Below are positions 55,090 to 56,372 of a stretch of DNA of 64,000 nt, in pieces; positions within the stretch are counted from its first letter, which is position 1, and every line of letters begins with the position of its first letter. The notes beneath the pieces were generated by a model. The model did not search any database and was not told where the DNA came from. It saw only the letters and a list, made by a program, of their open reading frames with translations. The stretch covers positions 1-64,000 of the forward strand of contig JANDJZ010000063.1 of the NCBI GenBank assembly GCA_027943245.1, written 5' to 3'. Source of the stretch: Acanthamoeba sp. SK_2022b (lineage: Eukaryota > Discosea > Longamoebia > Acanthamoebidae). The translations under genes and the position numbers were made by a program.

Positions 55090-56372
55090 GGCGTGACTAT
55101 GACGCTAACACAACACACACACACACGTAAGCGTCTTTGGGAACCGCTGTCTCAGATTACGCTCCCCTCGTGCAGGCGACCGACCCATCTGGCTGACGCG
55201 CGCAGGCCACTGCGACGCCGTCGAAGACCTGGACCCGCTGCAGGACGGAAGCGGGGAGGGCAGCATCGCGGACCAGCCCGCCCTTAGCGGTCGAGCCCGA
55301 CTGGAGAGCAGCGACGTGCCCTTGAGCTGCGGCACCAAGCGCCAGGCCAAGTTCCCCTCCATCGCTTCCATGACCGCGCACCTCAGCCCAGGTCTCTGGG
55401 GCGCCCCAGCTGCTCCCCCTCTTCCACTCCGGTGATAGACTCTTGGCTGTGGTATCGTTGCACTGACCAGGACTGTCGCAACCCCAGCGGGACTGGAGTA
55501 CGCGCAGAAGCTCAACGACTTCCTAACCAACTACACCCAACAAAGGTGTTCCCACTGCCGCGTTGATGGTACGCGGCCCTGCTATCACCTTTGCAATTAG
55601 TTTTTTTAATGAGCCTCTTTACTTGGTCAGAGGAACAATGCCCGGTGCTGGTCTACACAAGCACGTTGCCTCGTGCGCTGGAGACCGTCCGCTCGCTTTC
55701 GGTCCCGCCTCACTGTACTTCGCTCTTTGTTTTCGCTTTCGTTCTTTCTTCGCTTTTGCAGCTCTTCCTGAGGCTGACGGTGTTGCCGCGTGGCCAGGCA
55801 TCGAGCGATCGAGCAGTCTGAAGATGATCAACACGGGCGTGTGTAGCGGGATGAGCGTGCAGGAGATGATGGAGACCATGCCCAACGAATGGGCAGCATG
55901 GAGGGCCGACCCCTTCCGCTACCGCTTCGCCGGTGGCGAGTCCTACAAAGACGTCGTGCAAAACGTGGAGCCGCTCGTGCTAGACCTCGAACGACAGGTA
56001 ATACACAACACTGCACAACACACCCATGCACAGTTGTGTAATGAACGCGAGTGTGCGCGGTGTGAGCAGACTACGCCGATCCTGGTGGTGTCCCATCTGT
56101 CGACGCTGCAGGTGCTGTTCGGCTACTTCGTGGGGTGTCCAGTGGACAGCTTCGCGACGCTCTCGCTGCCGCGGCACACGGTGGTGCAGCTCACGCCCAA
56201 CCAGTATGGCTGGCAGGTCGAGTTCATCCCGCTCCAAGGCGGCGACGCCAGTCCTACCGCTGCCGCCTTGGCCAAATATTCGCAGCAGCACCCGTCCTAC
56301 GGCACTGCTGCCACCAAGCGCGACCAGCCAAGAGCAACAACGCCCGTGCAAGGCGAGGGCAATCTAAGTTAA
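53520..56372 (+). CDS. PFKFB: 6-phosphofructo-2-kinase/fructose-2,6-bisphosphatase with altered phosphatase site
   Basis: It starts MDHSPPQPVPARLVTDGLTA, a 115-residue Pro/Ala/His-rich extension. The kinase domain appears complete: LVLVLVGLPARGKSYIAHKL (Walker A), RARLFNVGAFRR, VAVFDATNTTKERR, INVIFIESICDDKQVLESNF, ISNYEAVYETVEDDEQLSYI and NRIYGKIAQKIVGFLMAIHT. The bisphosphatase domain follows in exons from 55,176. Its first strand reads DRPIWLTRAGHCD, so the RHG motif that carries the phosphohistidine is RAG (Ala codon 55,202-55,204). The Glu of the EIDAGVC motif appears as Met (KMINTGVCSG). The second catalytic His (VVSHLSTLQVLFGYF) and YRFAGGESYKDVV remain. Predicted: makes fructose-2,6-bisphosphate but does not degrade it. 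Introns hold two 75-bp (GT)n tracts. Confidence 0.9.
54861..54937. repeat. Intronic (GT)n microsatellite
   Basis: A nearly pure 77-bp GT run just after the donor of the PFKFB intron that separates kinase and phosphatase parts. Confidence 0.95.
55014..55086. repeat. Intronic (GT)n microsatellite, second
   Basis: A second pure GT run in the same PFKFB intron, about 75 bp after the first; short CA runs follow at 55,113. Confidence 0.95.

Follow-up and report, generated by a model that had tools for sequence, protein, structure and literature searches.

The balance between glycolysis and gluconeogenesis is set by fructose-2,6-bisphosphate, whose synthesis and breakdown are joined in one chain in the textbook enzyme. 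Human PFKFB3 and the other vertebrate PFKFB enzymes are bifunctional in this way. A 6-phosphofructo-2-kinase (PFK-2) with a broken phosphatase half is also found in trypanosomatids, and Chevalier, in 2005, is said to have described trypanosomatid isoenzymes of PFK-2/fructose-2,6-bisphosphatase (PFK-2/FBPase-2) in which active-site substitutions produce single-activity isoforms. Such enzymes are already known in yeasts and filamentous fungi (PMC9721465). The window considered here, a stretch of 64,000 nucleotides from Acanthamoeba sp. SK_2022b (contig JANDJZ010000063.1, positions 1 to 64,000), carries a PFKFB gene in which the RHG site of the bisphosphatase half is altered, and the alteration is real. 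Because the His and the Glu of the bisphosphatase are both lost and the kinase site is intact, the likeliest product, judged by its residues, is a kinase-only or kinase-dominant enzyme.

Pfk26 of Saccharomyces cerevisiae (P0239) is, like the window protein, a two-domain PFK-2/FBPase-2 in which the RHG His is replaced (RSG), and it is described as a PFK-2 with one activity lost (PMC9721465). Unlike the window protein, it still has its catalytic Glu, together with the Asn and the IGG loop, and it groups with RHG fungi. The importance of the His has been confirmed by mutation in rat enzymes and in yeast PFK26, as reported in the same paper, which also describes an ascomycete subfamily 2, PFK2-B. 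In the PFK2-B of Myceliophthora thermophila, RHG has become RAG, as it has in the window protein, and the genome also encodes an active phosphatase isoform. The window motif fits the subfamily description given there. Among the 120 matches listed for a yeast-type bait (His column: His 47, Asn 45, Ser 26, Gly 1, Ala 1), which were Pfk26-type and RHG fungal proteins, no ascomycete PFK2-B sequence was identified, the lone Ala row not having been followed up. Human PFKFB3 and the other vertebrate enzymes share the fold and the domain order of the window protein, but in human PFKFB3, RHG and EIDAG are present; a homologue's model is 30–39% identical to the PFKFB chains listed. An engineered comparison is the H256A mutant of the rat testis PFK-2/FBPase-2, which reportedly retains the Glu. 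The title of its Protein Data Bank (PDB) entry, 2bif, places fructose 6-phosphate (F6P) in the phosphatase site.

In the window protein, positions 55199–55207 read CGC GCA GGC in the frame fixed by the nine-exon model, which puts Arg-Ala-Gly at the RHG site, and the next codon, CAC at 55208–55210, adds a His. Ala368 (GCA, 55202–55204) stands at the phospho-acceptor histidine of fructose-2,6-bisphosphatase and Met495 (ATG, 55824–55826) at the catalytic Glu of EIDAG, EIDAGVC having become MINTGVC; neither position has the residue of a bifunctional enzyme. The phosphate-binding Arg367, Arg472, and Arg528 are retained, as is the second histidine (His561, the H392 equivalent). The tested kinase residues are present, namely the Walker A Lys (GLPARGKS), the Asp and Thr of FDATN (FDATNTT), NVGxxRR, and R...Y, and NYE is also there. 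Near Lys285 (LQKIRNSPD) there is a one-residue shift, which is the same, by eye, in the plant protein P0137. A first-pass annotation had noted the Arg-Ala-Gly, the His after it, the Met in place of Glu, and the intact Walker A, Asp, and NYE of the kinase; all of these were borne out, and a bisphosphatase site without its catalytic His and Glu does lie beside an intact kinase site.

That a normal RHG enzyme is masked by an incorrectly chosen exon, a misassembly, or pseudogene decay is very improbable. GCA matches neither His codon (CAC, CAT) at any of its three bases, so no single miscall yields it. The gene occupies 53520–56372 on the plus strand as an open model of nine exons and 652 aa, with GT-AG at all junctions and agreeing phases; the exon 7/8 junction was picked to agree with the homologue P0001. 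The alternative exon restoring RHG that had been raised earlier was looked for: no R-H-G-coding 9-mer occurs on the plus strand of 53500–56400, in a scan that excluded intron-split codons, and the exon region has no second copy in the assembly (44.9 Mb in 1129 contigs), where it matched itself alone. These results and the RSGH of P0001 also led to the rejection of a lone sequencing or splicing error.

P0001 (671 aa) is the closest protein to the window protein among the best 120 of 819 matches, with 83% identity across the queried region. It is coded in a single uninterrupted frame, from source contigs of at most 4592 bases, although eight introns interrupt the window gene, and a transcript is the simplest account of it. 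Its first residue is the corresponding Met, the same segments follow one another in it, and it reads PIWLTRSGH at the site and KMINTGVC further on. Both proteins have the family architecture of a 6PF2K domain followed by a histidine-phosphatase domain, P0001 with Pfam E values of 5e-67 and 4.1e-24, and the window gene with 2.7e-21 for its kinase frame (PF01591) and 1.9e-15 for the open frame 55527–56372 (His_Phos_1, PF00300); the exon 5 open frame alone gave no Pfam match. The kinase is the better conserved half, with 215 of 236 aligned residues identical (91.1%), compared to 237 of 292 (81.2%) in the phosphatase and tail.

The loss is not a lone case; in an old group it is the rule. A homologue search with the window protein gave 819 proteins with E values of 0.001 or less, and 102 of the best 120, to which the counts here refer, have no His at the His column (Ala 61, Pro 16, Ser 11, Thr 11, Cys 2, Val 1), leaving 18 with His. 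Of the 102, 99 could be aligned at the Glu column, and Glu is absent from all of these (Pro 42, Met 32, others 25). Three rows are gapped there: P0067 and P0090 read Met, and P0031, misaligned at the Glu and second-His columns, reads LNEIDTG and is probably the sole His-less row to retain the Glu. Among the 102, R257 is retained in 100, R307 in 93, R352 in 96, the Glu of GES in 93, and H392 in at least 95 (seven rows show no His in this column of the single MAFFT alignment from which these counts derive, but five have the motif by pattern and P0031 by eye, with P0089 remaining). The Asn, IGGD loop, Tyr, and Gln positions, which have substrate-binding roles in the bisphosphatase, are largely lost. 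The tested kinase residues are all kept in 91 of 94 relatives. In the 184 His-bearing proteins of the joint set, R257, R307, the Glu, the Asn, the tested IGGD Gly, the Tyr, and H392 are kept in all.

Named His-less members come from Balamuthia, Planoprotostelium, oomycetes, Triparma, Cylindrotheca, and Sphaeroforma, and from what we take to be Corallochytrium, Ichthyophonus, and Detonula (source labels Clim, Ihof, and "Detonul"); Opistho-2, another source label, presumably stands for a holozoan. The oomycete copies vary at the site, P0034, P0046, and P0064 reading RPAH. P0030 and P0114 have the letters RHG elsewhere in the protein and RPG at the site. Databases name some His-less members bifunctional, for example, Balamuthia P0009 and Phytophthora ramorum P0027. 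The residue after the motif (His370 in the window protein) is His in 47 of the 102, Gln in 14, Lys in 10, Ala in 6, Asp in 5, and others in the remainder. His370 as a replacement nucleophile is unlikely as a group rule, since just 47 members have a His there.

A tree was built on the kinase domain alone, so that the phosphatase columns could not drive the grouping. Its 83 rows and 218 columns cover 53 of the 103 His-less non-yeast proteins (the window protein included), 23 of the 184 RHG proteins plus human PFKFB3, and 6 of the 73 His-less yeast-type proteins; the 53 come from thinning at 62% identity plus a named list, and 13 of the 360 rows, which had no Walker A match and were aligned from the first residue, were excluded. 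All 53 fall on one side of a single branch (support 100/93), which is present in all 200 bootstrap trees examined of this unrooted tree, whose bootstrap had not fully settled. The proteins on that side come from amoebae, oomycetes, diatoms, and unicellular holozoans. The Glu is present in the six yeast rows; these make up one group (100/100) nested in a fungal set of 11 rows (100/99), where the other five are RHG proteins. A common loss with yeast Pfk26, the six yeast rows being joined to the 53, was rejected by the approximately unbiased (AU) test (p 0.0028). Because of this grouping and the AU result, the window protein is placed in an old His-less group by its kinase sequence, and the Pfk26 loss is placed apart. 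The protein does not fit the Pfk26 type (His lost, Glu kept, among yeasts), its Glu being lost and the AU p value being that low. The suggested parallel with fungal kinases stands as convergence and goes no further, since Pfk26 kept its Glu and sits among RHG fungi. The superfamily is defined by this His, which makes loss the simpler direction of change.

The paralogue with an intact RHG that had been proposed as a check is present on contig C493. In a search of the whole assembly with Pfam 6PF2K, seven candidates were scored and two places matched, the window gene and this one (L007, minus strand 5631–2631, 12 exons, 581 aa as modelled). The paralogue carries RHG, DEIDAG, VIAHNAV, and the full tested kinase set, with HYT replacing NYE. 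In its model, exon 4 ends three bases before the GT donor and one Met is missing (RLHAVLAL, compared to RLHMAVLAL in P0121 and P0124). All 118 new matches listed in the search with the paralogue retain the His. The same pairing, one protein of each kind, occurs in other amoebae: Balamuthia has the RHG-less P0009 (RSAH) beside the RHG protein P0124, and Planoprotostelium has the RHG-less P0025 (RAGH) beside P0160, which carries RHG. The N-terminal region of P0121, which is 96% identical to the C493 paralogue, matches Pfam AIP3 (PF03915) at the cut-off (31.6 bits), a domain also found (precomputed) in 11 of the best 120 rows from the paralogue search.

In all, the window protein, a member of an old paralogous group, is quite probably a kinase-dominant PFK-2 isozyme that works beside an RHG-intact paralogue and whose bisphosphatase domain is folded but not catalytic. 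With its residues intact, the kinase domain would make fructose-2,6-bisphosphate. The C-terminal histidine-phosphatase domain would still fold and keep its phosphate-binding arginines and second histidine, but having Ala in place of the nucleophilic His and Met in place of the general-acid Glu, it would hydrolyze fructose-2,6-bisphosphate very slowly at most. The C493 paralogue, RHG-intact and presumably bifunctional, would supply the phosphatase activity. The earlier suggestion that the enzyme pushes fructose-2,6-bisphosphate up is thus far a conjecture, and it has to reckon with this intact paralogue in the same genome. The pocket has most likely been retained for the stability of the fold or between domains, or for a phosphorylated ligand that tunes the kinase.

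Some observations weigh against this. The tree rows were recruited by their likeness to the window protein, the paralogue, and the yeast-type bait, and unsampled relatives may place otherwise. Bisphosphatase activity of the H256A mutant is mentioned in the title of its structure paper, so residual activity is possible, and the arginine and histidine shell is kept in more than 90% of the 102 relatives. Slow hydrolysis of fructose-2,6-bisphosphate by direct water attack, or of another phosphate, could then proceed through the remaining arginines and His561. This is unlikely, since the general-acid Glu is replaced as well and the Asn, IGGD loop, Tyr, and Gln positions are mostly lost too; with Glu to Met as a second loss, a dead phosphatase is far more likely. 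Also on the opposing side, the RAG-type M. thermophila PFK2-B, when made in Escherichia coli, had neither activity at a detectable level (PMC9721465), so a kinase half that looks intact could yet be weak. If the window protein resembled fungal PFK2-B in that assay and had no useful kinase activity, it could serve the intact paralogue, which is present in the genome, as its partner or regulator. However, the tested kinase residues are kept in the window protein and nearly all of its relatives, and the kinase domain is better conserved than the phosphatase half, which makes such a pseudoenzyme quite unlikely. For PFK2-B itself, its authors inferred a low level of kinase activity from a slower-growing double mutant (PMC9721465).

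Beyond the kinase-dominant reading, one could consider, tentatively, that a paralogue common to Amoebozoa, Holozoa, and Stramenopiles, possibly present in their last common ancestor, recast its bisphosphatase domain as a sensor that binds phosphate without catalysis. The traits that suggest it are the missing nucleophile and acid, the retained Arg and His shell, a longer loop, and the group-typical changes of D to N, A to S, and R to Q. If so, cells with both paralogues would separate the synthesis of fructose-2,6-bisphosphate from its balanced control.

What seems new here is the breadth of the clade, and the retained pocket is also of interest. No description of the His-less protist group was found among the open-access papers listed, as judged from titles and the beginnings of abstracts, and a prior description is possible. 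Should the kinase-only branch prove old and common among protists, the uncoupling would be a stable and repeated design rather than a yeast oddity. A retained, non-catalytic pocket also permits a direct test of the remaining role of such a domain.

Table. The altered site and the exons of the PFKFB gene, in window positions
Feature	Positions	Strand	Content
Altered RHG site	55199..55210	+	CGC GCA GGC CAC = Arg367-Ala368-Gly369-His370; intact enzymes have RHGE/Q
Exon 1	53520..54210	+	Low-complexity N-terminus and kinase domain start; Walker A Lys141 at 53940-53942; Pfam 6PF2K E 2.7e-21
Exon 2	54297..54412	+	Kinase motif FDATNTT; Asp240 at 54323-54325
Exon 3	54492..54590	+	Kinase, SICDD...LQKIRNSPDY; Lys285 at 54537-54539
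Exon 4	54682..54850	+	Kinase domain end, RISNYEAVY...IH; Arg307 at 54694-54696
Exon 5	55176..55391	+	Bisphosphatase domain start, RPIWLTRAGH; long loop replaces the N...IGGD loop
Exon 6	55488..55568	+	Bisphosphatase domain
Exon 7	55631..55714	+	TSTLPRALETV; Arg472 (R307 equivalent) retained at 55672-55674
Exon 8	55798..55997	+	MINTGVC; Met495 (55824-55826) at the catalytic Glu; Arg528 and Glu533 (GGES) retained
Exon 9	56070..56372	+	VVSHLSTLQ; His561 (H392 equivalent, 56094-56096) retained; C-terminus and stop

Intron 4 (54851–55175, 325 nt) lies at the kinase/phosphatase boundary and holds two (TG)n tracts, both perfect, with 38.5 and 36.5 copies; the remaining seven introns measure 62–96 nt. 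Read-through into intron 4 would terminate the protein shortly past the kinase domain. Upstream of the gene, the neighbour at 51658–52575 on the minus strand was likened by eye to DDRGK1, from what we take to be its motif. On the other side, an adjoining frame at 57559–58266, also on the minus strand, matches leucine carboxyl methyltransferase (PF04072, 7.7e-6) and contains a (CGTG)20 tract at 57908–57987. Elsewhere in the assembly, a profilin differs, by a count made by eye, from profilin II of PDB 1f2k, an Acanthamoeba protein, at 6 of 125 aligned positions, which makes an Acanthamoeba-like amoeba the likely source. The assembly also has PFK-1 family loci; among them, paired matches on contigs C443 and C809, with matching scores and parallel spacing, represent either two haplotypes or a duplication.
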